Shown here in pieces: positions 2,695 through 26,170 of a stretch of 64,000 bases of DNA. The notes beneath the pieces are model-generated. The model did not search any database and was not told the origin of the DNA. It worked only from the letters and a program-made list of their open reading frames with translations. The stretch spans positions 53,092 through 117,091 of the forward strand of contig JAQSCO010000045.1 of the NCBI GenBank assembly GCA_029945445.1, in the 5' to 3' direction. The translations under genes and the position numbers were made by a program. The stretch is from Lacunisphaera sp. Lineage in GTDB: Bacteria; Verrucomicrobiota; Verrucomicrobiia; Opitutales; Opitutaceae. How positions within the stretch are numbered: the first letter of the stretch is position 1; every line of letters starts with the position of its first letter.

Positions 2695-2837
2695 TCGATC
2701 CGGTCGGCGAGGCCGCCGCTGGCGATTTTCATTAGTGAACCATAGGTTCAAATATGGTATTGAATGATACGCGCCGTCGCCCTAATTCATTAGCCAACCT
2801 CACCGCTCTTACCCGGCGGTTCCCAACCTACACCCCT

Positions 2838-5800
2838 ATGAACTCAAGTCATCGACCTGAACTGTCGGTGCGCAAGCTGGTGCTTGCGCACTTCTGCCTC
2901 CTGCTCGGCGCCGCGACGGCCTCCGCTCAGACCACCGCTCCGAGCAGCACCGCGCCGGAACCGGCCCCGAAGAACGTGCCGGTCGTCGTCAGCGCCGAGG
3001 CACCGGCGAAAGACGAGACCCTGGTGCTCTCGCCCTTCGAGGTCGTGGCCAACAACAAGGGCTACTATTCCGCCAACACGATGTCCGGGACGCGCTTCAA
3101 CACGAAGCTCGACGACCTCGCGTCCTCGATCACCGTCATGACGAAGGAGCAGATGGCCGATTTTGGCATGCTCGATGTCAATGACGTGTTCCTCTACGTC
3201 GCCGGCACCGAGGGCACGGGCACCTACACGGACTACACTCTCGACCGCAACGGCAGCCTCGGGGACAACGTCCAGAACAACCCGACCAGCGCCAACCGTG
3301 TGCGCGGCATCGCCCCGGCCAACATCTCGCTGGGCAACATCGAGACGATGGGCCGCGTGCCGGTCGATCCGCTCAGTATTGATTCCCTCGAGGTCAGCCG
3401 CGGCCCCAACGCCAACGTCTTCGGCCTCGGCAATCCTTCCGGCACCGTCAACCAGGTGCCGGCCTCGGCCAACCTGACGCGCAATCGCGCGAGCACGACA
3501 CTCCGCGCCGACAGCTATGATGGCTCCCGCGCGACCCTCGACCTCAACCAAGTTCTGATCAAGGGCCGGCTGGCTGTCCGTGGTAGCGCGGTCTACCAGC
3601 AGGATCGTTTCGAGCGCAAACCCTCGGGCGTGGACACCGAGCGCTACAACGCGATGATCAAATACCAGCCGTTCAAGTATACGACGATCAGCGGCAGCAT
3701 GAACTATTACCACGCCTACGGCAACCGGCCGAACGCCCTGCCGCCCCGCGACAACCTCTCCTACTGGCTCAGCCAGGGCAGTCCGACCTGGGATCCGGTC
3801 ACGCAGCAGATTCACAATTCCGACGGCTCGCCGCGCGGCGCGCCCGTGACCGCCACGACCTACAACGGGCCCGATGTCTTCAATGCCGGTTACCTCGGCA
3901 ACAACCACGGCATGATGTTCATCGACCAGACCGGCCTCTCCTACTGGTCGACGCCCCAGGCCACCAGCAGCACCACGAGCCCCGTCGGGACCACGCTGCA
4001 GGCCGCCCGCTACCTCCAGACCAGCGCGGTCGCCGGCGCGGTTTTCTCCGGCACGGCCCCCCGCCCCTTCGCCCAGTATCTGTTCAACACGACCCCGACG
4101 ATCAGCGACAAGGGTATCTACGACTGGTCCTCGATCAATCTCTCGGCGCCCAACAGCTTCTGGGACAAGACTGCCACCTGGAACGCCAACATCGACCAGA
4201 TGATCCTCAACACCCCCACCCAGACGCTCGCCGCCCAGTTCTCGTTCATGCGCGAGGACTCAGAGCGCTGGACCCGCAACCTCGTGGGCACCGCCAATGA
4301 CAACGGCCAGTCCGGCCAGCTCATGGTGGACATCAACGAGCGCCGCCTCGACGGCTCGGTCAATCCCTTCTTTCTGCGGCCCTACCTCAGCGTCGACAAG
4401 CCCCGCACCCAATACAATCCGCAGAAGTGGGACACCACCCGCGCGCAGCTGGCCTACCGCCTCGATCTGACCGAGAAGGACAACTTCCTCAAGCACCTCG
4501 GCTGGTTCCAGCTCACCGGTTACGGCGAATACAAATACCGCGTCAACCGCCAGTATTCCTACCGGGACGCGATCGCCTCGCCCTCAGTTGCCTGGATCCC
4601 CGCCGGCACCTACCGCGGCACCCAATCCAACCCGACCGGCACGCCCGCCATCATCAACCTCACGCAGGGCCTCTACCGCTACTATGTCGGCGACAAAACC
4701 GGCAACAACGTGGACTACGCCCCCGGCAGCTTCAGCTTCGGCACCTATCCGTTTGTCTGGGGCAACGCCGCCACCGGCGCCTTCACCACCGACAACCTGC
4801 TCCTCGCCCCGGTCGCCGCGGACAAGTCCGGCGGCACCTTCAACACCAAGACCACGCTCAAGACCATCGGCGGTGTCATGCAGAATCACCTGCTGAGCGA
4901 CCGCCTCGTCGTCACCCTCGGCGCCCGCTACGACCAAGTCTCCACCCAGTTCGGCAATCCGGGCAATCCCGTGAACAACTACATCAATGCCGACGGCATC
5001 ACGTTCAATTACGACGCGACCGACGGCTGGGCCGCGGCCAGGAACTCGAACGGCGGCCGCACCACCAACGTCCAGTTCGTCGCCCGCCCCTTCGTGGACA
5101 CGCCTGTGGTGAGCAAGCTGAACTCGATGGACCATCACTTCGTGGCCGATCTGCTCAGCGGCCTGTCCGTGAACGCCAACCGGTCCAACAGCTTCCTCCC
5201 GCTGAACCCGGCCCAGGATCTCTTCAAGAACATCCTGCCCAATCCGACGGGCACGGACAAGAGCTGGGGTCTCGGCCTCAACCTGTTTGATGGCAAGCTG
5301 GTCATCCGCGCCACCCGCTATGACAACCTGCAGAAGAATTCCCAGAACAACGATATCAACACCATGGCCGGCCGCGTCCTGCGCGTTGACTTCCTCACCA
5401 GCGGCGCCGGCAGCCCCACGCCCTCGCACAATCTCTACACCAATGCGGTGCGCTGGGTGACATTCGCCAACCCGACTTGGACCACCGACCAGATCACGGC
5501 TGAGGTTCAACGCCAGACCAAGTTCAGCACGGCGGATAACGCCTACTACTCCAATGCGACCCCGCCGATTGCCGCCACCACCGATATCCGCTCGGTCGGC
5601 ACGGAGATCGAGGTCAACTACAACCCCACCCGCTTCTGGACCGTCTCGGGATCCGTCACCGACACAAAGTCGATGAACCAGAATATCTCCAAGGCGCTCG
5701 TCGATTGGATCAACCTGCGCCTGCCGGTCTGGACGACGGCCGTCGATCCGTCGATCAGCGACGCCAATGCCCTCGCCGAGGGCAACCCGGGAAAACTCTG

Positions 5801-6353
5801 GTGGCTGCACCATTATACGCAATCGGGCACGGCTTCCCTGCCTGGCACGGCCGCGACCTTCACCGCCACGGCCGCGACTCCGCAGGATAACTACAATGCG
5901 TTCGTGGCCGCGCCCTTTGGCATCATCCGGGCCCAGGAAGGCAAAACCAACCCTCAGGTCCGCCGCTACGCGTTCCGGGCCAGCACCAGCTACAAGCTCG
6001 CGGGCTTCAGCGACAACAAGGTACTGAAGAGCATGACCATCGGTGGCGCGCTGCGCTGGGAGGACAAGGGGGCCATCGGCTACTACGGCCTCCAGTCCCT
6101 CCCCGCCATCATCACCGACCTCGACCCGAACCGCCCGATCTACGACAAGGCCCACTACTACGTCGACGCGTTTGTGACCTACAAGACGAAGCTCTGGCGC
6201 GACAAGGTCGGGGCGAGCTTCCAGTTCAACGTCAAGAACCTCGGCGAAGGCGGGCGCCTGCAGCCCGTGGGCGCGTTCCCCGACGGCACGATCCATACCT
6301 TCCGCATCGTCGACCCGCAGCAGTTCATCCTGAGCGCGTCGTTCGACCTCTGA
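2838..6353 (+). CDS. TonB-dependent outer-membrane receptor
   Basis: A 1171-residue outer-membrane transporter. The start at 2838 is chosen because it gives a normal signal peptide (LVLAHFCLLLGAATASAQ); the frame stays open for 28 codons upstream. A TonB-box-like stretch (TLVLSPFEVVANN, about residues 60-72) precedes the plug domain (about 75-215, with SSITVMTKEQM and VSRGPNANVFGLGNPSG). A very long beta-barrel follows and ends in the terminal Phe-Asp-Leu typical of barrels. The SPFEV motif and the size match the greatly expanded TBDR family of Opitutaceae. The substrate is unknown; related receptors take up glycans, siderophores or peptides. It appears monocistronic and is followed by a terminator hairpin. 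Confidence 0.95.
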   Translation: MNSSHRPELSVRKLVLAHFCLLLGAATASAQTTAPSSTAPEPAPKNVPVVVSAEAPAKDETLVLSPFEVVANNKGYYSANTMSGTRFNTKLDDLASSITVMTKEQMADFGMLDVNDVFLYVAGTEGTGTYTDYTLDRNGSLGDNVQNNPTSANRVRGIAPANISLGNIETMGRVPVDPLSIDSLEVSRGPNANVFGLGNPSGTVNQVPASANLTRNRASTTLRADSYDGSRATLDLNQVLIKGRLAVRGSAVYQQDRFERKPSGVDTERYNAMIKYQPFKYTTISGSMNYYHAYGNRPNALPPRDNLSYWLSQGSPTWDPVTQQIHNSDGSPRGAPVTATTYNGPDVFNAGYLGNNHGMMFIDQTGLSYWSTPQATSSTTSPVGTTLQAARYLQTSAVAGAVFSGTAPRPFAQYLFNTTPTISDKGIYDWSSINLSAPNSFWDKTATWNANIDQMILNTPTQTLAAQFSFMREDSERWTRNLVGTANDNGQSGQLMVDINERRLDGSVNPFFLRPYLSVDKPRTQYNPQKWDTTRAQLAYRLDLTEKDNFLKHLGWFQLTGYGEYKYRVNRQYSYRDAIASPSVAWIPAGTYRGTQSNPTGTPAIINLTQGLYRYYVGDKTGNNVDYAPGSFSFGTYPFVWGNAATGAFTTDNLLLAPVAADKSGGTFNTKTTLKTIGGVMQNHLLSDRLVVTLGARYDQVSTQFGNPGNPVNNYINADGITFNYDATDGWAAARNSNGGRTTNVQFVARPFVDTPVVSKLNSMDHHFVADLLSGLSVNANRSNSFLPLNPAQDLFKNILPNPTGTDKSWGLGLNLFDGKLVIRATRYDNLQKNSQNNDINTMAGRVLRVDFLTSGAGSPTPSHNLYTNAVRWVTFANPTWTTDQITAEVQRQTKFSTADNAYYSNATPPIAATTDIRSVGTEIEVNYNPTRFWTVSGSVTDTKSMNQNISKALVDWINLRLPVWTTAVDPSISDANALAEGNPGKLWWLHHYTQSGTASLPGTAATFTATAATPQDNYNAFVAAPFGIIRAQEGKTNPQVRRYAFRASTSYKLAGFSDNKVLKSMTIGGALRWEDKGAIGYYGLQSLPAIITDLDPNRPIYDKAHYYVDAFVTYKTKLWRDKVGASFQFNVKNLGEGGRLQPVGAFPDGTIHTFRIVDPQQFILSASFDL

Positions 6354-6414: not shown

Positions 6415-6475
6415 GTGGTCGGTCGTGCAGTCGAATAATGTCGCCGCCTCCCGCCCGCCTTTTTAGTTAGCCCAC

Positions 6476-8353
6476 ATGTCCAAGCGCCCCAGCCCGCCTC
6501 CCGCCGCGTCGCCTGCTCGCGCGGACGTCGGATCGTGGCTGGCCGGCTGGTGGTGCGCCCTGGTTTTCCTGCTCATCCTCGTGGCCTACCTGCCCGCCCT
6601 GTCGGGCGGCCTGCTGTGGGACGACAACGGCCACATCACCCGCACTGACCTGCGCTCGTGGGAGGGCCTCTTCCGCATCTGGTCCGAGATCGGCGCCACG
6701 CAGCAATACTATCCGCTGCTGCATTCGGCCTTTTGGCTGGAGCACCACCTGTGGGGCGACGCCACGCTCGGCTACCACCTCCTCAACGTCCTGCTGCACG
6801 CCACCACCGCCTGCCTCTTCGGCCGTTTGTTGCAGCGGCTCGCGGTGCCCGGCGCCTGGCTGGCCGCCCTGCTGTTTGCCCTGCATCCCGTCTGCGTCGA
6901 GTCGGTGGCGTGGATCTCCGAGCAGAAGAACACCCTCTCCGCCGTGTTCTACCTGGCCGCCGCCCTCGCCTACCTGCGCTTCGACGACGGCGAGCGCACG
7001 CCCCGCCGCTATGTCCTCGCGACGGGCCTGTTCGTGCTGGCGCTGCTGACCAAGTCCGTCACCGCCACGCTGCCTGCGGCCCTGCTCGTCGTCGGCTGGT
7101 GGCGGCGCGGCCGGCTGGACTGGCGGCGTGATGTGCGGCCGCTGCTGCCGTGGTTCGTGCTCGCCGGCGCCTCCGGCCTGTTCACCGCGCATTTCGAAAG
7201 CGCGCTCATCGGGGCCCAGGGCGCGGACTTTAACCTCGGTGTCCTGCAGCGCTGCCTGCTCGCTGGACGCGTGGTCTGGTTCTACCTCGGCAAACTGGCT
7301 TGGCCTGCCGACCTGATCTTTATCTACCCGCGCTGGACCATCGACACCGCGGTCTGGTGGCAGTGGCTGTTCCCGCTGGCCGGACTCGCGTTGCTCGGCG
7401 GACTCGCTTGGTGGAGCCGACAATCGCGCGGGCCGCTCGCCGCGGCGCTGCTGTTTGGCGGCACGCTCTTCCCTGTGCTCGGGTTCGTGAACGTCTACCC
7501 CTTCGTCTTTTCCTTTGTCGCGGACCATTTCCAATACCTCGCCAGCCTCGCGGTCTTCGCACTGGCCGCCGCGGGGCTTGCGCAGGCCTCGGCCCGCTTC
7601 CCGGCCCGGGCTCGCTACGCCGCCGCCGCCGCACTGCTGGCCGTCCTTGGCGCCCTGAGTTGGACCCAGAGCGGGATGTATCGCGACGTCTACACACTCT
7701 ACCAGACCACCTTGGCGCGGAATCCTTCCTGCTGGATGGCGCACAACAACCTTGCCCTCGCCCTCAGCGCGGACGGCCGGATCGAGGAAGCGATCCAGCA
7801 TCTCGAGCAGAGCCTCCGGCTCAAACCCGACTACGCCATCGCCGAAAACAACCTCGGCGACAACCTGGTCAAGCTCGACAGGTTCGTGGAGGCTGTCCCG
7901 CACTTTGAACGCGCTGTCCGGCTCCAGTCCAACTACGCCGTCGCCCACCGCAACCTCGGGCTCGCCCTGGCCATGAGCGGCCGGACCGCGGAGGCAATAC
8001 CCCATTTCCAGGAGGCGGTGCGGCTGAACCCCGTTGACGCCGACGCCGAGCTGAAATGGGCCACCGGGCTCATGCTGACGGATCGTTTTCCCGAGGCTGT
8101 CCCGCATTTTGAGCGCGCCGTCGCCCTTGCGCCGGAAGCGATCGATGGCTGGTTCACTTATGGGCGGGCGCTCATGCGCGCGGGCCGTTTCGAGGAGGCC
8201 ATCGGGCCATTCGAACAGGCCCTCCGGCTCGACCCGGCCTACGCCGAAGCCCACTTGAACCTGGCCCTCGTGCTGCGGCAACTCGGCCGCCGGCAGGGCG
8301 CACTTGAGCACTTCCAAGAAGCCATCCGCCTTAACCCGGCACTGGGCCGCTAG
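6476..8353 (+). CDS. TMTC-like membrane glycosyltransferase/TPR protein
   Basis: A 625-residue protein with two parts. Residues about 25-405 form a polytopic membrane region resembling GT-C glycosyltransferases, with an acidic GGLLWDDNGHI motif in the first loop and HPVCVESVAWISEQKNTLS in a later loop. Residues about 410-625 carry about six TPR units (repeated AIxHxxxAxRLxPxYA). The layout matches eukaryotic TMTC O-mannosyltransferases and their many uncharacterised relatives in Verrucomicrobia and Planctomycetes. A role in protein O-glycosylation is inference. The gene converges on the cyclase gene with only 12 bases between the stops. Confidence 0.75.
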   Translation: MSKRPSPPPAASPARADVGSWLAGWWCALVFLLILVAYLPALSGGLLWDDNGHITRTDLRSWEGLFRIWSEIGATQQYYPLLHSAFWLEHHLWGDATLGYHLLNVLLHATTACLFGRLLQRLAVPGAWLAALLFALHPVCVESVAWISEQKNTLSAVFYLAAALAYLRFDDGERTPRRYVLATGLFVLALLTKSVTATLPAALLVVGWWRRGRLDWRRDVRPLLPWFVLAGASGLFTAHFESALIGAQGADFNLGVLQRCLLAGRVVWFYLGKLAWPADLIFIYPRWTIDTAVWWQWLFPLAGLALLGGLAWWSRQSRGPLAAALLFGGTLFPVLGFVNVYPFVFSFVADHFQYLASLAVFALAAAGLAQASARFPARARYAAAAALLAVLGALSWTQSGMYRDVYTLYQTTLARNPSCWMAHNNLALALSADGRIEEAIQHLEQSLRLKPDYAIAENNLGDNLVKLDRFVEAVPHFERAVRLQSNYAVAHRNLGLALAMSGRTAEAIPHFQEAVRLNPVDADAELKWATGLMLTDRFPEAVPHFERAVALAPEAIDGWFTYGRALMRAGRFEEAIGPFEQALRLDPAYAEAHLNLALVLRQLGRRQGALEHFQEAIRLNPALGR

Positions 8354-14811: not shown

Positions 14812-15660
14812 CTAATGAGCTTGGTTCGCTTCGTCCGCCCGCAGGTGTGCCAGCATTTGCACCAGGGCACCGGGCTCATCGGCCGTGGCCTTGAGGGCCG
14901 TCAGAAATTTCTCCGCGTTCTGGTTCTTCGGGTCGAGTTCCAGCGCCTTTGCATAGTTGCGCAGGGCGGCCGCGCGGTCGTCGTTCTTCACGTTGGCCTC
15001 GCCGAGGCTGTCGTAGACGTTGCCGGAGGCGGGGTAGAGTTCGACGTTCCATTGCAGCACCGCCAGGGCCGCGGGTAGGTTGTCACCCTTGGTGAGGTAT
15101 TTGTAGCCAAGGTTGTTCAACTGGCTCTCGCTGACGTAAAGACCGTCGAACTTCGCGGCTTGGACCTCGGCGAACTTCGCCTGCGCGGCGGCCAGCCCTG
15201 CGGTGTCGATGGTTTCCTGCAACAGGTCGGCCAGGCCATGGGCCTTGATCTCGAGGACCTCGATGTCGAAGCGCAGCGTGGAATTCGGCGGAATCGCGCC
15301 GCGCTGCTTGGCGCCGTAGGCCAGGTCGGGCGGAATGATCATCGTGCCCTTGGCCCCCACCCCGAAATAACCGAAGGCCTCCTCGACACCCTTGATGACC
15401 TGTTTTCTGCCGAGCGTGAAAGCGAACGGAGTCTTCCGGTCGAAGCTACTGTCGAAGACCGTGCCGTCCGGCAGCGTGCCCTTGTAGTGATAGATGATGA
15501 CCTCGCCCGCCTTCGCCAGCGCACCAGTGCCGTGCTCCGTGATCAAATACCGCAGGCCTGATGGCGTCGTGATCAGATTAGCCGGTTCGGTCGCGCCCAA
15601 GGCAGACACGGCCAAAGCCGCCACCCACACCGGCAAAAAACGGGAGAGGGAATGATTCAT
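14812..15660 (-). CDS. FKBP-type peptidyl-prolyl isomerase with C-terminal TPR region
   Basis: A 282-residue exported protein. It has a signal peptide (residues 1-23, ending ALGA), an FKBP domain (about 30-140, with GEVIIYHYKGTLPDGTVFDSS, VIKGVEEAF and IPPDLAYG) and a helical C-terminal region (about 150-275) with a TPR-like pair (YPASGNVYDSLGEANV, RNYAKALELDPKNQNA). The FKBP part catalyses prolyl cis-trans isomerisation and should assist folding in the periplasm. The gene sits between two LuxR-type fragments, which suggests that the locus has been rearranged. Confidence 0.93.
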   Translation of the reverse strand: MNHSLSRFLPVWVAALAVSALGATEPANLITTPSGLRYLITEHGTGALAKAGEVIIYHYKGTLPDGTVFDSSFDRKTPFAFTLGRKQVIKGVEEAFGYFGVGAKGTMIIPPDLAYGAKQRGAIPPNSTLRFDIEVLEIKAHGLADLLQETIDTAGLAAAQAKFAEVQAAKFDGLYVSESQLNNLGYKYLTKGDNLPAALAVLQWNVELYPASGNVYDSLGEANVKNDDRAAALRNYAKALELDPKNQNAEKFLTALKATADEPGALVQMLAHLRADEANQAH

Positions 15661-15716: not shown

Positions 15717-15777
15717 ATGTGGCGCGGCTTCCAGCCGCAGATCTGTCAGGCTCACCGGCTGGAAGCCGGTGCCACAT
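15717..15777. repeat. Palindromic repeat with GCGGCTTCCAGCCGC core (family C)
   Basis: The outer arms ATGTGGC and GCCACAT enclose two hairpins (GCGGCTTCCAGCCGC and ACCGGCTGGAAGCCGGT). A second two-hairpin copy is at 25659-25709 and a single hairpin at 23683-23701. Its right end touches the stop codon of the LuxR-type ORF. Confidence 0.75.
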
Positions 15778-16085
15778 CAAGCCAGCAGCCGCACGATCAA
15801 CTGGCAGCGGCTTTGGACGCCGAGCTTGCGCATGGCCGAGGATATCTGGTGCTTGATGGTCGCCTCCGCCCGGCCGAGGGCGGAGCAGATCTCCTTGTTC
15901 GACATCCCGTGCGCCGCGTGGATGGCGACGAGCCGTTCGGCAGGGGTGAGCTGAGAAAGCAGGTGGAGCGGCCTGACCCCAGGACGCTCAAACGCACTGA
16001 GGTCAGCGCGTTCCACCGGCAACTGGCAGCTCGCACCGTCCAGATAGCTGGCGGGCACGAGGCGGGAATGAGTTTCAGAAACCAT
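15777..16085 (-). pseudogene. Orphan LuxR-type HTH, probably a truncated response regulator
   Basis: The last 57 residues form a complete LuxR/GerE helix-turn-helix (LTPAERLVAIHAAHGMSNKEICSALGR..., ending SRCQLIVRLLA). The first 45 residues match nothing in the family, and residues about 22-45 are translated from the family E repeat at 15960-16017. The usual receiver domain is missing. I read this as the 3' part of a response-regulator gene cut off by the repeat; expression as a short DNA-binding protein cannot be excluded. A fragment of a second copy lies at 14755-14796. Confidence 0.6.
15960..16017. repeat. Family E repeat, copy 2
   Basis: CAGGTGGAGCGGCCTGACCC...GGTCAGCGCGTTCCACC, an imperfect palindrome matching 14603-14660. 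It lies inside the reading frame of the LuxR-type ORF. Confidence 0.65.
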
Positions 16086-16190: not shown

Positions 16191-17372
16191 TCACAGCTTC
16201 AGCAGCCGCTTCACTTCCTGCTCCAGCATTTCACCGGTGGTGTTGGTCGAAACGACCCGGCCTTCCTGGTCCAGCAGGAACTTTGCCGGGATAAACTGGA
16301 TGTTGAAGCGGGTGGAAATTTCATTCGGTCCCGCTTTCTCGGAAAGATACTGCGGCCAAGGCATGGCCTGCGTGGTAATGAAGTCGGCGAGCACTTTTCT
16401 GGCCTTCGCCAGCTTGGTGGCGATCTCAGCCGGCGAATCGCCGGGCTTCAACTTGGTTTGTTGCAGCGCAACTCCGATGATTTCAAATCCCTTTTCGTGA
16501 TACGCGGCGTAAACTCTCTTAAGGTCGGGAAGCTCGGCGACACAGGGACCGCACCACGTGGCCCAAAAGTCGATCAACACCACCTTGCCCCGGAGGCGCT
16601 GCAGATCCACCTCGCGGCCATCGACCGCGGTGAAGGTCAGGTCAAGCGGTCGGCTGAGCTCCGCAAGAAAACTCAGCTGATCGGCGGCTTTCTTCCGCAG
16701 CGCGGCGTTTCCCGCGCTCCCCAGTTGTCGCCAGGCTTTCTCGCCGGCGCCCGGCACACACCGGTCGAACTGGTCGAGGAAACTGCTCGCCCGGTTCACG
16801 ACCACGTCCAGCGCCGCATACTTTTCGATATGGGCCATGAACCGTTGAAGGAACGGCCCGAAATCGCCGGGACCCTCCTTGGTCCCTTTTTCCTGGGCGG
16901 CTAGGAAATCCTTGAAGAGTCGCAGCCACTCCGCCTGTTCCCGCAATGCCACCGTGACCTCGGGGGACGCGATCAAACTGTCGGTCAGCTGCTCGATTTT
17001 TTTCGTCCAAGCCTGCTTGGCGTCTTCATCCACCACCACGGCGGCCATACCCCGGGTTTCCACGTCGGGACCAATGCTCTGCACAAACAATGGAGGCTGC
17101 TTGGCCAGCACAAGCACCACCTCCCAACGACGTGGGTCGGCAGGATAGGTGTTGTAAAACGCCAAACCGGCCGCCGCCAATTCGTGACGGTTCTTGTCGA
17201 CCCAAGTCACGACTTTCGCCGCGCCTTCAGCCTGCAGCGTTTCGGACGGACGCTCCTGGCTCAGGGATATGAAGGCCGCATAATCGGCGTCTGCAGAGTT
17301 CGGGACCGCCCGGACGAAGAGAACCGAGGTCAAGAACAGACCGAGAGTGAAGACTTGGTGGCGTAACGACAT
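16191..17372 (-). CDS. Exported thioredoxin-fold (TlpA-like) protein with a novel N-terminal domain
   Basis: A 393-residue protein with a signal peptide (residues 1-23), a helical N-terminal region (about 25-235) and a C-terminal TlpA/AhpC-TSA-type thioredoxin domain (about 240-393). The redox motif is FWATWCGPC and a cis-Pro loop is in NIQFIPAKFLLDQEG. The N-terminal region carries FYNTYPADPRRWEVV, a motif shared with the upstream paralogue (17394-18398). It follows that gene by 21 bases and probably belongs to the same operon as the FecI/FecR/TonB receptor genes. A periplasmic disulfide reductase role is inferred from the fold. Confidence 0.85.
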   Translation of the reverse strand: MSLRHQVFTLGLFLTSVLFVRAVPNSADADYAAFISLSQERPSETLQAEGAAKVVTWVDKNRHELAAAGLAFYNTYPADPRRWEVVLVLAKQPPLFVQSIGPDVETRGMAAVVVDEDAKQAWTKKIEQLTDSLIASPEVTVALREQAEWLRLFKDFLAAQEKGTKEGPGDFGPFLQRFMAHIEKYAALDVVVNRASSFLDQFDRCVPGAGEKAWRQLGSAGNAALRKKAADQLSFLAELSRPLDLTFTAVDGREVDLQRLRGKVVLIDFWATWCGPCVAELPDLKRVYAAYHEKGFEIIGVALQQTKLKPGDSPAEIATKLAKARKVLADFITTQAMPWPQYLSEKAGPNEISTRFNIQFIPAKFLLDQEGRVVSTNTTGEMLEQEVKRLLKL

Positions 17373-17393
17373 GGGCAGAGTTGTTAACTGGTT

Positions 17394-18398
17394 TTAGTAG
17401 GCACGTTCACGGCGTTGTTTTTCTCCGAGTTCCACGATCGCAGCATCCACCTTGATCCCTGCGCGGGCGAGGGCAGCCTCGAGGATGACCTCGCCTTCGT
17501 GGTAACCGCTCGAGGTGTCCGCGAGCCGACCTTCCCGGTCGATAATGAACACGGTGGGGATGCCCGAAACTCGATAAAGTGTTTTGGCGGCCCGGGCATC
17601 ACCTTTTCCCTGGGGATCATGCGCCCACACAAAATTGGGATACTGGTGCCCATAAGTCCGGACCCATTTCTCAAAATTCTCCCGCGTGTCCTGAGTGCAG
17701 GAGGCGAGCACGACCACCCCCTGGTCCTGATATTTGGCCGCCACTTCCTGATTGTGCGGCATGGCCTTCTTGCAGGGGGTGCACCATGGCGCCCAAAAAT
17801 CGAGGACGACCACCCGGCCCCGGAAATCGGAGAGCTTCACTTCATTTCCCGCCAGATCCTGCATCGGAAAATCGGGCGCGCGCTGGCGCGACCGGGCCCA
17901 ATCCTCAAACGCCGTTTTTTCCCGGATGTGGGTTTCCTTTCTTTTCTCCAGTTCCGCCCAGCGCTGTCTCAATTCAGGCGGAATATCCGGAGCGGAGGCC
18001 ATCTCGGCCTTCAAGGCCGCCACCTTGGCCCGCCAAGCCCCGGCCAGGGTCTCGTCAACCTCTTGGGCAGTCGGCACACCCGCGGGATTAAGCGCCCAAA
18101 ACTTGCCGAAGGTGGGAAAGCCCGGCAAGAACGTGTCAACCAGCAGCCAGCGCCGCGGATCCGTGGGATAATTTGACAGGAACTCCAGGAGGAGATCGCG
18201 TCGTTTGAGCGCTCGGCCGTCCGCCCATTGATACAACTCAAGCATGGAACGGCCGTCGTCCGGGTCCGGGTTCTTGTTCAATTCATTGAACTCCGCGATG
18301 AGGCGGTCCGCCCCGGAGGCGGTGCCGGTGGGCTGCGTCTCAGCCTGGACGGTCCAGGCCAAGAGCAGCGTAAGCAGCAGGTATCGTTTCGTGGGCAT
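17394..18398 (-). CDS. Exported thioredoxin-fold (TlpA-like) protein, paralogue of its neighbour
   Basis: A 334-residue protein with a signal peptide (residues 1-19), an N-terminal helical region (about 20-165) with FLSNYPTDPRRWLLV, and a thioredoxin domain (about 170-315) with FWAPWCTPCKK and the cis-Pro motif SGIPTVFIIDREG. The domain order matches the neighbouring gene at 16191-17372, but the N-terminal part is shorter. It starts 50 bases after the stop of the STN-type TonB receptor, which suggests joint expression. It probably keeps cysteines reduced in the periplasm; the YPxDPRRW domain is not one I recognise. Confidence 0.85.
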   Translation of the reverse strand: MPTKRYLLLTLLLAWTVQAETQPTGTASGADRLIAEFNELNKNPDPDDGRSMLELYQWADGRALKRRDLLLEFLSNYPTDPRRWLLVDTFLPGFPTFGKFWALNPAGVPTAQEVDETLAGAWRAKVAALKAEMASAPDIPPELRQRWAELEKRKETHIREKTAFEDWARSRQRAPDFPMQDLAGNEVKLSDFRGRVVVLDFWAPWCTPCKKAMPHNQEVAAKYQDQGVVVLASCTQDTRENFEKWVRTYGHQYPNFVWAHDPQGKGDARAAKTLYRVSGIPTVFIIDREGRLADTSSGYHEGEVILEAALARAGIKVDAAIVELGEKQRRERAY

Positions 18399-18448
18399 GT
18401 TGCTGAAAGCGGCCGGTGACGATGAAGGATTTCGCGCAGGCTTGGCGC

Positions 18449-21400
18449 TCAGAAGCCCTTTTTCAGCGTGATCGTGTAGCTCGCCAGCCGGGGATCGTTA
18501 TACCCGTTGTAAGAATAAGCCGAGGCATCGAACGTTGGATAGGTATTCAGGACATTCTTCACCCCAATCTGGAGTTCGGTCCGCCGCAGCAACTTGGAGC
18601 CGGAGGATCCAAATCGATAACCCACATAAACGTCGTGGAATACCTGACTGTCCACGCGGCCGCCGTTACCTTGCAGCGGAATCGAAGATGCCAGTAATTC
18701 CTTGGACAATAAGTAGGAATCGAAATAACGGAGAGTCCATCCGGCCGACCAAGCACCCCGGTTCCAGTTAACCCCGATATTACCCTTCAATTTCAACGGG
18801 TAGTTCGAACCGGAACCAATATTTATCAATGATGCATTGTTGGAAGTGCCAACGTTCTCCACGATGGCTTCACCTGGAAAGGTTTGGGTCTCATAATGGG
18901 TCGCTTTCGTGGCGACCGCAAAGAAGTCGAAGGTGCCCAGCGACTGGGAGTCCCAACGATAGTCGAGCTGGATGTCATAGGCTTCCAAGTTGGCGCGGGC
19001 GATGTTAACCGCAGTGACGTAAAGTTCCGTGATAGGGCCGGACCAGCTCGCCGGATCACCGGGGAGCTTCGGACCACGCACCACCCGCACCTGAAATCGA
19101 TCCTCATTGTTGAGGATGAGCTGCGCGTTAGGGTTATTCACGATGTTGTCCGTTTTCTCTATGCGGAGCCAATCAACCGAAAGTCGCAGACCGGGAATGG
19201 CCCGGGGCGTCAGGACGAGGCCGGTTGAATACGTTTTTGATTTCTCCGGGGTGAGATTGGGGTCACCCCCAAAGTAGTAGGCCCCGCCCGACGGAGACGT
19301 GCCGCCTCGTTTCGGGTCGGACAAGCCGAGGAAGCCCAAAATACCAAGGAAAGGATCATTGGCCGAAAGTTGCGTGATATTGGGCGGAAGAAATCCAGTG
19401 CCATAGCTGGCCCGGACCATCAGGTCCGGTGTCGGCACCCAGCGCAAGGCGATGGTGGGGTCGGTTGACGAAAGCTTGTTGGTCACGTATTTGATGGCCG
19501 CAACCGTGGTCGGGGTGTTGGCCCCCAGGGTGTCGTATTCGTCGCGGCGTCCAGCCAGTTGCAGGTCGAGTGCCCGCACAAAGGGCAACGCATTGTCCGG
19601 GCCCACGAGCGGTATCTTAAGTTCAATGTAGGCGCTGCGGACCGATTGCTCGCGCGCCGGCAAGATGCGATTGCCAATAGACCAGAATCCGGCGCCGGTT
19701 TTTTCCTCCCGATCCTCCAGCAGGACGGCGGCCGTCGGACGACCCCCGGGCAGCGTCCAAACCGGTCCGGAGGCACGCACCACCGCATCCCGCAAAGTCA
19801 CCTTGAGCGGGGTGGCCAGAACGCTGACGGGGGTGCGATAGCGCGCTGCGTCGATCGGATAGGCAACCAGGTCGCGGAAAACATCAATCGCTCCGCTGTT
19901 GATCGCCGGAGGATAGGTGAGTGTACTGGAAGAATTCTGGGACGACAGGGAGGATTGATTGTAGGTGTAATCCGCACCGATCTGCCATTCGCCGGGCACC
20001 TTGACGATCACCCCGGCCACCCCCCGCCGATCCTCCGATGTCGATACCGCCTCAACCGGGTCGATGTATTGGGGAAACGACACGATGATTGGTTGATTAA
20101 ACGGGTTGCCGGCGGCCGACGCCTGCACGTTAAAGGTCGGGGAGGAACTTGACCAGCCGCGCTTGTGACCGGTGTTCTTATTAAGCCCAAAATCGACGAA
20201 TGCCTGAAACCGGTCCGAGAACTGACGGCGGACACTCGCGCTGAACGACTCGATGGTCGGAGTGTTGATCAAGGACGTCAGATTGCTGCCCGCATCCTGG
20301 CCGTTGGAGAGGTCGAAATTGTGATGACCCGCGTTGGCGATCAGGCCGGCACCGTTGTCCGAGGCCGGTCCCGCGTAACCATACGGCACATAGGTGATGG
20401 TGGAGTTCACCGCCCCGCCGCCATATTGGGGCTTGAGGGTGAGATTCTGACCGTTCGTGCTCCGCACGTTGGACGTGGCACCTGTATACGGGATCGACCG
20501 GAATTTATAGGTGGGATCATTGGCGTCGATGGTCAGCCGGTTGCGTTTCAGAAATCCCCGATCCTGCTCCAGCAGGGAATTGCCATCGGAATAACTGGCC
20601 GCCAGCAGGACATTGGTCTTGCCGCCCTCAAGGGTGAACCCGGCGCTGACGTCCACCCGCCGGATGGCGGAGTCCGTATCAAAGCTGTTCGTGTAGGAAA
20701 ACTTGGCCTCCGCCCCTGCGTAATCGCGGCGGAGAATGATGTTCACCACTCCCCCCGTCGCACCGCCCCCATAGATGCCCGAGGCGGTGGTCGGCAAAAT
20801 CTCGATCCGCTCGATCGCAGCCAGGGGAATCCCGTTGAGATCCGGCTGCAGTAACGAATCGATGGTCGTCGAACCTGCAACCCGGTGGCCATCCACGAGG
20901 ATAAGCGTCTGCCCGGGACCAAGCCCGCGAAGGTTGATCGTGCTGCGCGAGCCATAGGCGGTGTTGGGTTGCTGCGACTCGGAAGTCACCGTTGTCTCCA
21001 TGGGCAGCCGCTGGCGCAGCAGGTCCTCGAGGTTGGTGGCACCGGATCGTTCGATTATCGTGCGATCGAAAATGACGTAGGGCTGGGCGTCATCGCGACT
21101 GCGCGGCTTGTCCATGTTGAGCAGCCTCGAGCCCATGACCTCGAACTTGTCGAGGACCAGCTTGCCCTCCGCGACTTTCGCCGGCGCCTCATCCTTTTGG
21201 GGCCGGCCGGGGGCGTTTGGGCCCGCATCCCTCTTCACCACGATGGCGCCAGTCTTGGCGTCCTCCAAGGCCGTCAGCTCGGTGCCGGCGAGGAGTTGGT
21301 CGAGGCCTTCCTTGACCGTCAACTCGCCCTGCACGGCGGCGGTCTTGACCGCGCCGACCGGCTGGACGGGGAAAAGTATCTCGCGCTTCGCCTGCGCGGC

Positions 21401-21562
21401 GAACTGCTTGAGGGTCTGCGCCGCATCGCCGGCGGGGACATCGAACTTCACCTTGGCGGCATCCACGGCAAAGGCCGCGGACTGGAGGAGGAACGGCAGA
21501 GTAACCAAGACGAGCCGGAGGGCCCGGAAACAATTCAGCGGTGCAGGGTGGTCGGGTTTCAT
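18449..21562 (-). CDS. TonB-dependent receptor with N-terminal STN signalling domain
   Basis: A 1037-residue outer-membrane receptor. It has a signal peptide (about 1-33), an STN (secretin/TonB short N-terminal) domain (about 36-112, with FDVPAGDAAQTLKQFAAQAK) and a linker with a TonB-box-like LVLDKFEVMGS. The plug follows (about 155-290, with STINLRGLGPGQTLILVDGHR and ASGIYGGGATGGVVNIILRR), then the barrel ending in TITLKKGF. The STN domain is the part that contacts a FecR-type regulator, and fecR- and fecI-like genes lie directly upstream. Ligand binding would therefore switch on expression of this operon. The ligand is unknown. Confidence 0.95.
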   Translation of the reverse strand: MKPDHPAPLNCFRALRLVLVTLPFLLQSAAFAVDAAKVKFDVPAGDAAQTLKQFAAQAKREILFPVQPVGAVKTAAVQGELTVKEGLDQLLAGTELTALEDAKTGAIVVKRDAGPNAPGRPQKDEAPAKVAEGKLVLDKFEVMGSRLLNMDKPRSRDDAQPYVIFDRTIIERSGATNLEDLLRQRLPMETTVTSESQQPNTAYGSRSTINLRGLGPGQTLILVDGHRVAGSTTIDSLLQPDLNGIPLAAIERIEILPTTASGIYGGGATGGVVNIILRRDYAGAEAKFSYTNSFDTDSAIRRVDVSAGFTLEGGKTNVLLAASYSDGNSLLEQDRGFLKRNRLTIDANDPTYKFRSIPYTGATSNVRSTNGQNLTLKPQYGGGAVNSTITYVPYGYAGPASDNGAGLIANAGHHNFDLSNGQDAGSNLTSLINTPTIESFSASVRRQFSDRFQAFVDFGLNKNTGHKRGWSSSSPTFNVQASAAGNPFNQPIIVSFPQYIDPVEAVSTSEDRRGVAGVIVKVPGEWQIGADYTYNQSSLSSQNSSSTLTYPPAINSGAIDVFRDLVAYPIDAARYRTPVSVLATPLKVTLRDAVVRASGPVWTLPGGRPTAAVLLEDREEKTGAGFWSIGNRILPAREQSVRSAYIELKIPLVGPDNALPFVRALDLQLAGRRDEYDTLGANTPTTVAAIKYVTNKLSSTDPTIALRWVPTPDLMVRASYGTGFLPPNITQLSANDPFLGILGFLGLSDPKRGGTSPSGGAYYFGGDPNLTPEKSKTYSTGLVLTPRAIPGLRLSVDWLRIEKTDNIVNNPNAQLILNNEDRFQVRVVRGPKLPGDPASWSGPITELYVTAVNIARANLEAYDIQLDYRWDSQSLGTFDFFAVATKATHYETQTFPGEAIVENVGTSNNASLINIGSGSNYPLKLKGNIGVNWNRGAWSAGWTLRYFDSYLLSKELLASSIPLQGNGGRVDSQVFHDVYVGYRFGSSGSKLLRRTELQIGVKNVLNTYPTFDASAYSYNGYNDPRLASYTITLKKGF

Positions 21563-21658
21563 GAGTGGGTGGTTAACCCAAGATGCCGGAGGAAAACTTT
21601 TCCGCTAAAGATTCACCCAATATTTCCCGGAAGGCGAGCAGTGCGGGGAATTGATTTC

Positions 21659-21675
21659 ACCACGAAGACACGAAG
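21659..21675. repeat. Family A repeat (ACCACGAAGACACGAAG)
   Basis: A short copy of the CACGAAG repeat upstream of the STN-type receptor gene, next to the longer inverted repeat at 21691-21766. Confidence 0.55.
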
Positions 21676-21690
21676 CTTCATGGCAATGTC

Positions 21691-21766
21691 TGTCATTCTG
21701 AGCGGAGCGAAGAATCCAGTTGGATGCGCACCTGCCGCTGGATCCTTCGCTTCGCTCAGGATGACA
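21691..21766. repeat. Inverted repeat of TGTCATCCTGAGCGAAGCGAAGGATCC type (family D)
   Basis: The left arm 21691-21719 (TGTCATTCTGAGCGGAGCGA...) and right arm 21738-21766 (...TTCGCTCAGGATGACA) pair over 29 bases with three mismatches around an 18-base loop. This sequence type is widespread in unrelated bacterial genomes. It lies between fecR and the TBDR gene and could attenuate or stabilise the operon mRNA. Confidence 0.7.
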
Positions 21767-21825
21767 ATCCAAGGGGAAGCATCTCTAAACTTTGCTAACT
21801 TTGCTTTCTTTGTGTAAGAACCCTC

Positions 21826-22860
21826 TCAGCGGCGGCGGAGCGTGATCGTGCCGTCGGTGCGGTCGGCGCGGACGCTGAAGCCGGCCTCGAGCAGGCGGAT
21901 GAAGCCCTCGACGTTGTCCGAGCGCAGCGAGGCGCTGACCTCAACGTCGGCGAGATCGGTATCGGCGATTACGAGATGGACGGGCGCATTGCAGCGGTTG
22001 AACTCGGCCACGACACCGCGCAGGGGCGCCGAGGTGAACTCGAGCATCTTCGGCTGCCACGCGAGCATCTCACTGGCCTGCTCGGGCGGCACCACGGCGA
22101 CGCGCGGCGGTGTGCTGACCGGCACCAGGGGGACCACGGCGCGCTCACCCAGACCAAGCTCCGATACCACGGTCTCGCGTCCGCCCGCGGCCGCGGCGTT
22201 TTCCTGATCGACCCGCACCTTGCCCTCGGTCACGAGGACCTCAACCGCCGAGCGGCCAAGCCGGACGTCAAAAGCCGTGCCGACAGCACGGACATCGACT
22301 CCGGAGGCGGAAACGATGAACGTCCGCGCGGTGTTATGGGCGACGGTGAAATGGGCCTCACCGCGCACGAGCCGCACACGGCGCTCAGCGGGCGTGTAGT
22401 CGACCGCGACCTGACTGCCGCGGTTGAGCTGGACGACGGAGCCGTCCGGGAGCGTCAGCTCCTCAATGGCGGCAATGTGGGTCGACACCGGATTCTCCGT
22501 CGGCGCCGGTGCCACCGACCACTGCACATAAGCGACAAAGGCCAGCGCCGCGGCCGCCGCGAGTGAGAGACCCGTGATCCAAGTCCGCGGAAAGCGGACG
22601 ACCTTGGCCGGCGGCGGCGCGAGGAGATCGCGGTTCGGGCGCGCGCTGTGCTCGGGGCGCCATTGTCCGAGGAGGTTGAGGCGGTCCCAATTCTGCCGGT
22701 GCCGGGCTAGTGCCGCGGGATGCCGCCAGTCGATCATGAGCCAATGGAGAAATTCATCCTGCTCCGCCGCCGTGAGCCCGCGGTCCTGACGGAGAACCCA
22801 GGCGGCGGCCTGATCCTCAATGGAATTCGGCGGGGTGGATGAGGGGGCGGGGTCTTTCAT
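21826..22860 (-). CDS. FecR-type transmembrane anti-sigma regulator
   Basis: A 344-residue inner-membrane signal transducer. The N-terminal cytosolic part (about 1-100) has the FecR DUF4880-like WLMIDWRHPAALARHRQNWD motif. One membrane helix follows (about 104-124, ITGLSLAAAAALAFVAYV), then the periplasmic FecR domain (about 140-240, LPDGSVVQLNRGSQVAV, VRGEAHFTVAHN, VRAVGTAFDVR) and a C-terminal STN-like segment that should contact the receptor. It overlaps the sigma gene by 4 bases (ATGA), implying translational coupling. Confidence 0.93.
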   Translation of the reverse strand: MKDPAPSSTPPNSIEDQAAAWVLRQDRGLTAAEQDEFLHWLMIDWRHPAALARHRQNWDRLNLLGQWRPEHSARPNRDLLAPPPAKVVRFPRTWITGLSLAAAAALAFVAYVQWSVAPAPTENPVSTHIAAIEELTLPDGSVVQLNRGSQVAVDYTPAERRVRLVRGEAHFTVAHNTARTFIVSASGVDVRAVGTAFDVRLGRSAVEVLVTEGKVRVDQENAAAAGGRETVVSELGLGERAVVPLVPVSTPPRVAVVPPEQASEMLAWQPKMLEFTSAPLRGVVAEFNRCNAPVHLVIADTDLADVEVSASLRSDNVEGFIRLLEAGFSVRADRTDGTITLRRR

Positions 22861-23399
22861 TGGCGGGACGACAGGGGGGTGCCGTGCTGGGCGAAGTATT
22901 CACCGAGCTTGCGGAGGGCGATCGTGCCCTGGGCCTCGACCGTGTGCTCGGAGATGCCCATCTCGGCGGCGACCTCGCGCTGGGACAGGCCATAGATCTT
23001 GCGCAAGGTGAGGATCTGGCGGCAGCGGGTGGGCAGCGATTGGATGGCCTGGGTCAAGAGTTCGAGTTCCTGGGAGTGCGCGACGTCATTGGCGACATCG
23101 GCGCTATCATCCAAGATGCCGGCGAAGGCGTTTTCCGTTAAGGCATCCTCGCGGGCGACCGCCCGGTGGCGGAGCTGCATGAGCATGACGTTGCGGGCGG
23201 TGACGAACAGGAACGCCTTGGGCGAATGGACCTCGCCGGCGGCCCGGGCCTTCAGGACGCGCATGTAGGCTTCCTGGACGATGTCGTCGATGTCGCCCTC
23301 GTTACGGAACTGGGCCTTGAGCCAGGCACGCAGCATGGGCTCGTGCGGCTGCAGCTCAGCCGCGAACCAACGCGCTTCTTCTGTATCTTGGGGAGGCAC
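22857..23399 (-). CDS. FecI-type ECF sigma factor
   Basis: A 180-residue extracytoplasmic-function sigma factor. Region 2 (about 20-85) includes DIDDIVQEAYMRVLKA and KAFLFVTARNV; region 4 (about 115-165) includes LPTRCRQILTLRKIYGLSQREVAAEMGISEHTVE. The start is a GTG at 23399 with no clear ribosome site. It heads the unit sigma-fecR-TBDR-thioredoxins and should direct transcription of the receptor operon once released by FecR. Confidence 0.93.
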   Translation of the reverse strand: MPPQDTEEARWFAAELQPHEPMLRAWLKAQFRNEGDIDDIVQEAYMRVLKARAAGEVHSPKAFLFVTARNVMLMQLRHRAVAREDALTENAFAGILDDSADVANDVAHSQELELLTQAIQSLPTRCRQILTLRKIYGLSQREVAAEMGISEHTVEAQGTIALRKLGEYFAQHGTPLSSRQ

Positions 23400-23762: not shown

Positions 23763-24107
<345 letters not shown>

Positions 24108-24126
24108 TTATGGGCTGAGGTTGGGC

Positions 24127-25578
24127 TCAGGACTTGGCTTCCATGATGTAGCCTTCCTCGCCGTGGTCGGTGAGGTCGAGGCCCTGCTGTTCCTCGTCGG
24201 CACTCGGGCGGAGGCCGATGACGGCCTTGAGCGCGTAGGCTATGACGACCGTGGCCACCACGGAGAGCGCGAGGGTCAGGCCGATGGCCTTGAGCTGCTC
24301 GAGCCAGAGCGACTTGCCGACGATGTCCTTCAGGTTGGTGGTCAGGTTGCCATTGACCGAGGCCGTGGCCAGGACGCCGGTCAGGAACGCCCCGAGCGTG
24401 CCGCCGATGGCGTGGACGCCGAAGGTGTCGAGCGCGTCGTCATACTTGAAGAAGCCCTTGAGCTTGGTGCAGGCGAGGAACGGGACCGCGCCGGCAAGGA
24501 CGCCGACGATGATGGCGCCCGTGCTGTTGATGAAACCACAGGCCGGGGTCACCACGACGAGGCCCGCGACGGCGCCGGAGCAGAAGCCCAGGACCGAGGC
24601 GTGCTTGCGGGTGACGTATTCGAGGCCGGCCCAGACGAACGAGGCGACCGCGGTGGCCAGCGTGGTGGTGGTGAAGGCGTTGGCGGCCACCCCGTCGGCG
24701 GCGACGGCCGAGCCGGCGTTGAAACCATACCAGCCGACCCAGAGCATGCCGGTGCCGACCATGCAGAGCACCATGCTGTGCGGGGGCATCGGCGTCTTGC
24801 CGAAGCCGAGGCGGGGCCCGAGGATCAAGCAGAGGAGCAGCGCGGACCAGCCCGAGGACATGTGCACCACGGTGCCGCCCGCGAAGTCGATGGCCTTGAT
24901 CGCGGCGCCGGCGTTCCAGACACCATTCATGAAGCCGGTGATGCCCCACACCATGTGCGCGAGCGGGAAGTAGACGGCGAACATCCAGACCGTGATGAAC
25001 AGCATGATGGCGGAGAACTTCATGCGCTCGGCGATCGCGCCCACGATCAGCGCGGGCGTGATGATCGCGAACATCAGCTGATACATCGCGAAGACATTTT
25101 GCGAAACCCAGTAGGCATAGTCGCCATTCGGTGCGCTCGTCACGCCTTTCAGGAAGAAATACTCCGAGCCACCCAGGAAGGGGCTGTTGAAGTTCTTGCC
25201 GAAGACCAGGCTGTAGCCGAAGGCCCACCAGAGGATCGTCACCAGGCCGGCGCAACCGAGGCACTGCGCCATGACGGAAAGGACATTCTTCTTGCGGACC
25301 AACCCGCCGTAGAAGAGCGCCAGGCCGGGCAGGGTCATGAAGAGCACCAGCGCCGAGCTGGTCATCATCCAGCCGTTGTGGCCGGGTCCGGGCGTGTCCT
25401 TCAGCGATTTGCCCGGATCGGTATTGTTGACGTAAGCCTCGAGCGCGGCGATGCGCTCGTCAGGCGTCGGGGCCGTCGGAGCGGCCGCCGGAGTTTGGGC
25501 AAAAGCGGAGCCGGCGAAGAGGAGCGCCAGACCCGTGAGGGCTGCGATACGCAGCAGTCGAGGTAACGTGGTATTCAT
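24127..25578 (-). CDS. amtB: Ammonium transporter AmtB
   Basis: A 483-residue Amt/Rh-family channel that imports ammonium. The start at 25578 (MNTTLPRLLRIAALTG) gives a signal peptide ending at AFAQ, as in Gram-negative AmtB; 37 open codons upstream are not AmtB-like. About 11 membrane helices follow, with ALFYGGLVRKKNVLS, FAGGTVVHMSSG (first pore histidine-region signature), DDALDTFGVHAIGGTLGAF (second pore histidine) and a cytosolic C-terminal tail. PII genes lie on both sides. Confidence 0.96.
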   Translation of the reverse strand: MNTTLPRLLRIAALTGLALLFAGSAFAQTPAAAPTAPTPDERIAALEAYVNNTDPGKSLKDTPGPGHNGWMMTSSALVLFMTLPGLALFYGGLVRKKNVLSVMAQCLGCAGLVTILWWAFGYSLVFGKNFNSPFLGGSEYFFLKGVTSAPNGDYAYWVSQNVFAMYQLMFAIITPALIVGAIAERMKFSAIMLFITVWMFAVYFPLAHMVWGITGFMNGVWNAGAAIKAIDFAGGTVVHMSSGWSALLLCLILGPRLGFGKTPMPPHSMVLCMVGTGMLWVGWYGFNAGSAVAADGVAANAFTTTTLATAVASFVWAGLEYVTRKHASVLGFCSGAVAGLVVVTPACGFINSTGAIIVGVLAGAVPFLACTKLKGFFKYDDALDTFGVHAIGGTLGAFLTGVLATASVNGNLTTNLKDIVGKSLWLEQLKAIGLTLALSVVATVVIAYALKAVIGLRPSADEEQQGLDLTDHGEEGYIMEAKS

Positions 25579-25597
25579 GGTGGTTGCAGCACCCCCA

Positions 25598-25614
25598 AAG
25601 CAAATCCGATGCCA
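25598..25614 (-). promoter_or_regulatory. Sigma-54 promoter of amtB
   Basis: On the minus strand the sequence reads TGGCAT-CGGAT-TTGCTT. The GG and GC dinucleotides have the exact spacing required by RpoN (consensus TGGCAC-N5-TTGCW). Ammonium transporter genes are classic sigma-54 targets. The predicted transcript start would be only about 10 bases before the amtB ATG, which is short and is the one point against it. Confidence 0.6.
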
Positions 25615-25658
25615 CGGATATTTTTTCTTCTCAACCTCGTGACATAACCCCGCGGGCC

Positions 25659-25709
25659 GTGGCTGCGGCTTCCATCCGTAGTATTTCACCGGCTGGAAGC
25701 CGGTGCCAC
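25659..25709. repeat. Family C repeat, second two-hairpin copy
   Basis: GTGGC...GGCTTCC...CACCGGCTGGAAGCCGGTGCCAC. The second hairpin is perfect, while the first (TGCGGCTTCCATCCGTA) has decayed relative to the copy at 15717-15777. Confidence 0.7.
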
Positions 25710-25789
25710 CTCCAAGCCGGATCCAACCCGTAAAAAGGCCGGCGCTCAGAGGAGGGCCGGCCGGCGGAAGAAAGCAGGAAGCGAAACGG

Positions 25790-26170
<381 letters not shown>

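Follow-up and report, generated by a model that had tools for sequence, protein, structure and literature searches.

Why would the genes of a cell-surface signalling unit run on into genes for exported thioredoxin-fold proteins? The question is raised by a locus of Lacunisphaera sp. (Opitutaceae) within a 64,000-nucleotide stretch of contig JAQSCO010000045.1 (positions 53,092 to 117,091; hereafter the window), where a FecI-type sigma factor, a FecR-type regulator, a TonB-dependent receptor and two thioredoxin-fold proteins, P2 and P1, are encoded in this order in one head-to-tail run on the minus strand (23399-16191). We observe that this gene content recurs in related genomes with intact CxxC motifs, that the receptors are scarce in cysteine, and that related modules are linked to the gene for DsbD, which hands electrons across the inner membrane to thioredoxins of the periplasm. 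Our reading, to which we give a probability of roughly 0.55, is that the locus encodes a cell-surface-signalling import module with built-in periplasmic reduction of a probably disulfide-containing peptide cargo. The individual parts are familiar, yet the combination of receptor, exported thioredoxins and electron-supply gene is undescribed as far as we found, with no description of a receptor-thioredoxin-DsbD module in the open-licence literature, which lacks most subscription journals.

All five genes named in an earlier note on this DNA are real, and their FecI, FecR, receptor Plug and barrel, and redoxin domains exceed the Pfam cut-offs. The run opens with the FecI-type extracytoplasmic function (ECF) sigma factor (22857-23399; Sigma70_r2, Sigma70_r4_2 and NCBIfam sigma70-ECF over cut-off), whose reading frame overlaps by 4 bp that of the FecR-type anti-sigma regulator (21826-22860; Pfam FecR over cut-off). 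The receptor (18449-21562; Plug and TonB_dep_Rec_b-barrel over cut-off) follows after 263 bp, P2 (17394-18398; CTPC; AhpC-TSA, 80.6 bits) after a further 50 bp, and P1 (16191-17372; CGPC; Redoxin, 60.6 bits) after 21 bp; the signal peptides of P1 and P2 were judged by eye only. The description of the receptor as an STN receptor stands in part. Its STN domain scores 20.6 bits against a Pfam cut-off of 28.4, but residues 35-119 weakly match the PDB signalling domains of PupB (E 6e-4) and HasR (E 0.003), which supports the STN reading of the N-terminus. The receptor's top PDB match (phmmer, up to E 10) is BtuB, over residues 150-325. For P1 the top PDB match is ResA (E 4.5e-16); P1 and P2 score 85-93 bits against NCBIfam ResA, below its cut-off of 170, and lower against TlpA and DsbE, also under their cut-offs. 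The unit runs from FecI to P1 as previously described, but it continues beyond: a small LuxR-type helix-turn-helix (HTH) gene (15777-16085, minus strand; 102 amino acids; Pfam GerE, 47 bits), which starts 105 bp past P1 and whose relatives recur as the module-terminal gene in many module loci, belongs to it. An FKBP-type prolyl isomerase with a TPR-like tail (14812-15660, minus strand; FKBP_C over cut-off, TPR models below) is possibly also part of the unit.

The two thioredoxin-fold proteins have more in common than their redoxin domains. Their N-terminal halves are homologous (BLASTP E 4e-8) and, as the earlier note had described, share a helical domain with the motif YPxDPRRW, present in the window as YPADPRRW and YPTDPRRW; in a ten-member alignment, its P and D are invariant and the next P, the first R and the W nearly so. 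No Pfam or NCBIfam model convincingly covers the domain in P1 or P2, and among the 10 aligned members the best Pfam match has E 0.033, below cut-off, while none of the 10 matches a Pfam TPR model at E 0.1. A structural model of P1 residues 24-240, built on a two-sequence alignment of the window proteins (predicted local distance difference test score, pLDDT, 83.1), is nearly all-helical with two short strands, and places the motif at a turn between helices 28-52 and 59-68 that resembles a TPR-hairpin turn. Its structural neighbours (VIA) are IFIT1 (best, Z 9.5), TPR-CHAT, BamD and YbgF, at Z of about 8-9.5, values commonplace among helical repeats, and generic helical repeats dominate both the Foldseek and the VIA lists. 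The best Foldseek match has E 0.083, and the sequence profile of the domain reaches YbgF only at E 0.33. As modelled, the domain looks like a divergent TPR-like helical solenoid rather than a proven TPR, so that the proposed novelty holds for the sequence family and less for the predicted fold. A model of full-length P2 was poor (pLDDT 50.5) and was not used, and a contig scan with full-length P2 picked up the thioredoxin domain and was uninformative on the N-terminal one.

As a single-sequence query, the P2 domain finds matches in 7 of 177 genomes of the order; two of these matches are marginal, and their loci (L107 and L108) lack the domain by our local model. A domain profile detects it in 16 of 387 genomes of the phylum, 12 of which belong to the family of the window; within that family, 65 of 250 genomes (17 of 49 genera) have it, whereas in the phylum of locus L015 (Mucilaginibacter, presumably Bacteroidota) it finds none among 296 genomes in a search that had no positive control. 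The domain thus appears mostly confined to one bacterial family. For the neighbourhood analysis, we sampled the order and phylum matches plus the best match in 40 of the 53 genomes new in the family search, leaving out 12 weak matches and G659, whose frame is interrupted, and labelled neighbouring genes with local hidden Markov models built from the window and related proteins.

Association was counted over 87 genes encoding both domain and thioredoxin at 71 loci, the window's two genes included; the loci from which the profile was seeded are among them, and they cannot be treated as independent. Of the 87 genes, 69 (at 53 of the 71 loci) have a receptor gene no more than 5.5 kb away on their own strand, and a single gene has one on the opposite strand, against a chance expectation of about 0.05 per gene (34 receptor plugs in the 4.17-Mb source genome). 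The domain therefore does not occur mostly outside receptor loci, the outcome that would have spoken against the link first proposed. In the source genome, the four other thioredoxin matches lie at least 33 kb from a plug on the same contig or on plug-free contigs. The association with a full signalling unit is weaker: because a same-strand FecI gene is found within 8 kb of only 46 of the 87 genes, the constant partner is the receptor and not the FecIR unit. A small HTH gene stands on the same strand within 800 bp of 18 of the 87. At L141, L146, L148, L150, L206, L210, L211 and L217 we observe a divergent regulator of 392-416 amino acids with the same HTH at its end; modules of this kind mostly lack a FecR of their own, although L150 also has a FecI/FecR-like frame. 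Pfam confirms GerE in the L146 regulator and assigns no family in L150 (E 1e-5). By our local model, such long HTH-ended regulators beside receptor-thioredoxin modules include L146:12973-14157, L150:5209-6429 and L253:14384-15625, the last without an NCBIfam family (E 1e-20).

The pairing is also selective from the side of the regulator. Among 16 further FecR regions from 7 genomes, 3 (L170-L172) include a thioredoxin gene and the other 13 (L157-L169) do not, and the thioredoxin pairing is therefore specific to a subset; this sample was drawn from matches down to about 1e-12, minus G080:C18:84710 and G126:C1:5380739, which were stronger than that. In a 78-row receptor tree (FastTree, with some long branches), FecIR receptors without thioredoxin (15 rows) show 5 label changes, compared to 13.9 in shuffles, and thioredoxin-linked receptors are spread across several clades, for which reason we reject a single ligand common to all modules. 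The CxPC motif is retained in 83 of the 87 domain-thioredoxin genes.

The source genome and two congeners have one DsbD gene each, every one beside a module, and of 40 further genomes searched (20 domain-positive, 20 domain-negative), 38 match with one long frame each, some with further matches in frames shorter than 300 amino acids. We compared the surroundings of DsbD in 21 domain-positive genomes, the source genome and two congeners among them, and 19 domain-negative ones, using overlapping loci where the DsbD stretch was cut; G610 (contig edge), G564 and G310 (no match) and second DsbD_TM matches in frames of less than 300 amino acids were left out, and G164 was counted as domain-negative despite a marginal domain match (E 0.009). 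In 17 of the 21 domain-positive and 2 of the 19 domain-negative genomes, DsbD has a receptor gene no more than 7 kb away, usually together with a thioredoxin module; it stands next to a cysteine-synthase-like gene in 14 of 21 and 0 of 19, respectively (Fisher p of 8e-6 and 6e-6, shared ancestry being ignored). The two domain-negative cases are L265, with a thioredoxin module, and L275, with a receptor only; the domain-positive genomes lacking the arrangement are those of L255, L256 (contig edge), L259 and L262. The 17 genomes span eight genera as labelled, and their DsbD-side modules do not represent a single orthologous unit: the L110 receptor belongs to a different main clade from the receptors of L105 and L171, themselves placed in different subclades.

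The source genome has a second module. On contig 57, one strand carries DsbD and the cysteine-synthase-like gene, and the other an M16 peptidase, FecI, FecR, a receptor and a multi-thioredoxin protein cut off by the edge of the contig. The ends of contigs 57 and 14 overlap exactly over 55 bases. Joined there, the frame (L110:3-2903, minus; L109:3-869, plus) encodes an exported protein of 1238 amino acids that contains six thioredoxin units in tandem, two of them degenerate and the other four with CGPC; the HTH gene behind it has a product 63% identical to that of the window. Similar proteins in other genomes have up to five recognised thioredoxin units.

Genes with the M16 motif are found at eight loci (L110, L142, L172, L187, L190, L191, L193 and L220), between receptor and thioredoxin gene in L187, L190 and L193, and Pfam M16 is over cut-off in all five scanned (L110, L172, L187, L191, L220). 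None occurs in 33 comparison loci, namely 13 thioredoxin-free FecR loci (L157-L169) and 20 epimerase loci (L222-L241); a tally over 93 loci includes short duplicates and was not used as a denominator. The window's FKBP protein is in turn 51-58% identical to the front part of fusion proteins (L176:1278-2843; L221:8440-10266; L156:9092-10594) in which the second half of the domain and then a thioredoxin come next, a natural fusion that, by sequence, ties proline isomerisation to thioredoxin.

These neighbours lend independent support to the suggestion, made when the locus was first described, that an imported ligand is reduced. Because DsbD, cysteine-synthase-like and M16 genes accompany the modules of relatives, a disulfide-bonded peptide or small protein is the simplest cargo, and disulfide-containing peptides or small proteins are the most likely ligand class. 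In such a module, the receptor would capture an extracellular ligand, its STN domain would signal to FecR, and FecR would release FecI, which would then activate the genes of receptor and thioredoxins, an activation step that we infer from the FecI-FecR-FecA paradigm. The receptor would carry the ligand to the periplasm, where the thioredoxin-fold proteins may dock through their TPR-like solenoid and then reduce it with electrons crossing the inner membrane via DsbD. M16 peptidases would serve digestion, FKBP proline isomerisation, and the cysteine-synthase-like enzyme the use of sulfur. The direction of electron flow, the docking and the identity of the ligand are what we infer here.

The thioredoxins might instead exert redox control over the signalling chain itself, as the earlier note had offered as its other suggestion, by setting a disulfide switch in receptor or FecR that tunes the sigma factor. 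Their genes do share a strand with FecI and FecR, but the cysteine counts speak against this: the only cysteine of the window receptor is residue 11, in the leader, and 48 of 61 thioredoxin-linked receptors have none after residue 110, compared to 7 of 17 unlinked ones. The window FecR has one cysteine (residue 290) within its last 200 residues, where 31 of 41 linked FecR proteins have none. Moreover, the modules of L146, L148, L211 and L217 combine the thioredoxin with the divergent HTH regulator, while their fetched stretches show no FecR. A disulfide switch within these two proteins is thus largely refuted and redox control of signalling very improbable. Since linked receptors are mostly cysteine-free, the thioredoxins would probably act on the cargo, and their substrate, judged from sequence, is probably neither receptor nor FecR. 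The same scarcity leaves most linked receptors without a cysteine on which a biogenesis helper could act, that is, thioredoxins (with FKBP) whose role is in folding or protecting the receptor or further proteins of the envelope. FKBP-thioredoxin fusions exist and BamD is among the weak structural neighbours of the domain, as such a role would have it, but a helper of this kind would not be expected to pair specifically with these receptors and with DsbD, and we regard the role as quite unlikely.

Uptake of a metal or siderophore, in which a ferric or copper complex is imported and the thioredoxins reduce the metal or strip a thiolate chelator, deserves somewhat more weight while still being unlikely. 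FecI-FecR receptors classically serve iron, and the best solved relatives of the window receptor are B12 and siderophore receptors; these PDB matches, however, mainly cover the plug region, the diversity of receptors in the 78-row tree is unlike a single chelator, and M16, FKBP and cysteine-synthase-like neighbours suit a peptide cargo better. The genes downstream of the module might point to a narrower cargo. Directly after it, on the same strand (14625-9629), follow four catabolic-type genes (4-hydroxyproline-epimerase-like, D-amino-acid-dehydrogenase-like, DHDPS-family and aldehyde dehydrogenase) whose sequences indicate a probable trans-4-hydroxyproline pathway, and the module might serve hydroxyproline-rich peptides in this lineage. 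In L170, from a congeneric genome, a module is likewise followed by the first three of these genes, in unchanged order. Compelling as this looked in two genomes, no receptor stands at the cluster on the stretches fetched from 20 of the 33 other genomes with a match, of which at least L222, L232 and L240 have short upstream sequence; the L232 cluster has a domain-thioredoxin gene downstream. We treat the hydroxyproline link as a lead only, and a doubtful one.

Several observations weigh against reductive import of a peptide cargo. The window locus itself has no adjacent DsbD, and an M16 motif search of the window found none; both links come from relatives and from the source genome's second module. 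M16 genes are present at a minority of loci, and the 40 DsbD neighbourhoods add no new case, their two, L242 and L250, being duplicates of L110 and L142. The linkage to DsbD may be an inherited neighbourhood, with events that are not independent within a genus. The stretches of L248 and L249 show only receptor, HTH regulator and cysteine-synthase-like gene, their thioredoxin genes lying in the overlapping L104 and L141, and the cysteine-synthase-like proteins score just under NCBIfam cut-offs (338 versus 344 bits). FecR fails to distinguish the two groups, as unlinked FecR proteins are equally cysteine-poor (10 of 13 without). Finally, 18 of the 71 loci have no nearby receptor, and most of these absences are real, because only four (L174, L176, L194, L197) have less than 2.6 kb of upstream sequence; in the receptor-less L191 an M16 peptidase is directly upstream, and the receptor-less L176 and L221 encode FKBP fusions.

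Among known systems, the ferric citrate system of Escherichia coli, FecI-FecR-FecA, shares an ECF sigma factor, FecR and a TonB-dependent receptor with an STN-like domain in one run; the module differs in that exported thioredoxin proteins (between one and three) follow, in many cases with an HTH gene as well, and in an STN score below the Pfam cut-off. TlpA/ResA oxidoreductases with DsbD as reductant share the exported redoxin domain, CxxC and, at related modules, the adjacent DsbD, whereas the module proteins have the extra N-terminal solenoid, a receptor partner and no NCBIfam match over cut-off. SusC/SusD loci of Bacteroidota include TlpA proteins and M16 peptidases and so likewise bring together an outer-membrane importer, thioredoxin and peptidase; they differ by the lack of domain matches in the L015 phylum noted above, from the search that had no positive control.

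The Fus systems (FusA-FusC; YddB-PqqL) share with related loci a TonB-dependent receptor and an M16 protease, which we find beside a receptor in the source genome's second module and at the other loci listed, except L191. The L172 protease is closest in the PDB to 9ldy, PqqL (E 1.7e-59), followed by the "putative zinc proteases" 6b03 and 6brs (about E 1e-33), which we take to be FusC. The window locus is not assigned to the Fus systems: it lacks M16, and FusA is not among the PDB matches of its receptor up to E 10 (phmmer, a single-sequence search that can miss it). By analogy, the module may work like a FecIR-signalled relative of this protease-associated import. On such import, PMC6793856 (2019) describes FusA relatives in Proteobacteria, counts 12 of 24 sequence clusters as having FusC relatives, and suggests that processing may alternatively fall to redox enzymes; thioredoxin, disulfide, FecR and sigma factor do not come up in a term search of it.

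A bolder version of reductive import, which we put forward tentatively and as the less probable, is that these receptors form a new TonB-dependent class importing folded disulfide polypeptides or other disulfide ligands that are dismantled reductively by DsbD-fed arrays of up to six thioredoxins and by M16 peptidases, their sulfur being assimilated. This would amount to a signal-controlled pathway for scavenging cystine proteins, much expanded within a single bacterial family, though we would not count on it. Few cases of TonB-dependent import of whole proteins are known, and how a stabilised protein, once inside, comes to be unfolded and processed is, to our knowledge, an open question; the ferredoxin case is discussed in PMC6071955. 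If our reading is true, the coupling of receptor to periplasmic electron supply makes reductive cargo processing directly testable, and a function is suggested for many receptors of these bacteria without an assigned role.

Regarding regulatory sequences, a scan for consensus promoters and terminators gave nothing above shuffles, and a search for ECF promoters found GGAAA upstream of less than half of the listed FecI and receptor genes, with no aligned motif; GGAAARGTTT has three matches in the window, one upstream of the receptor. The gap between FecR and receptor contains an imperfect inverted repeat (21696-21761; two opposite-orientation matches with 0 and 3 mismatches), the like of which was absent from 100 shuffles and which looks like a dispersed intergenic repeat. 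Elsewhere in the window, 2754-6353 (plus strand) encodes a receptor-like protein of 1199 amino acids whose Plug match is weak though over cut-off, and an open frame of 616 amino acids without Pfam match (6467-8317, minus strand) lies opposite one of 625, either of which may be coding. At 23763-26128 (minus strand), we observe what is presumably an ammonium-transporter-like gene between two PII-like genes on the same strand.

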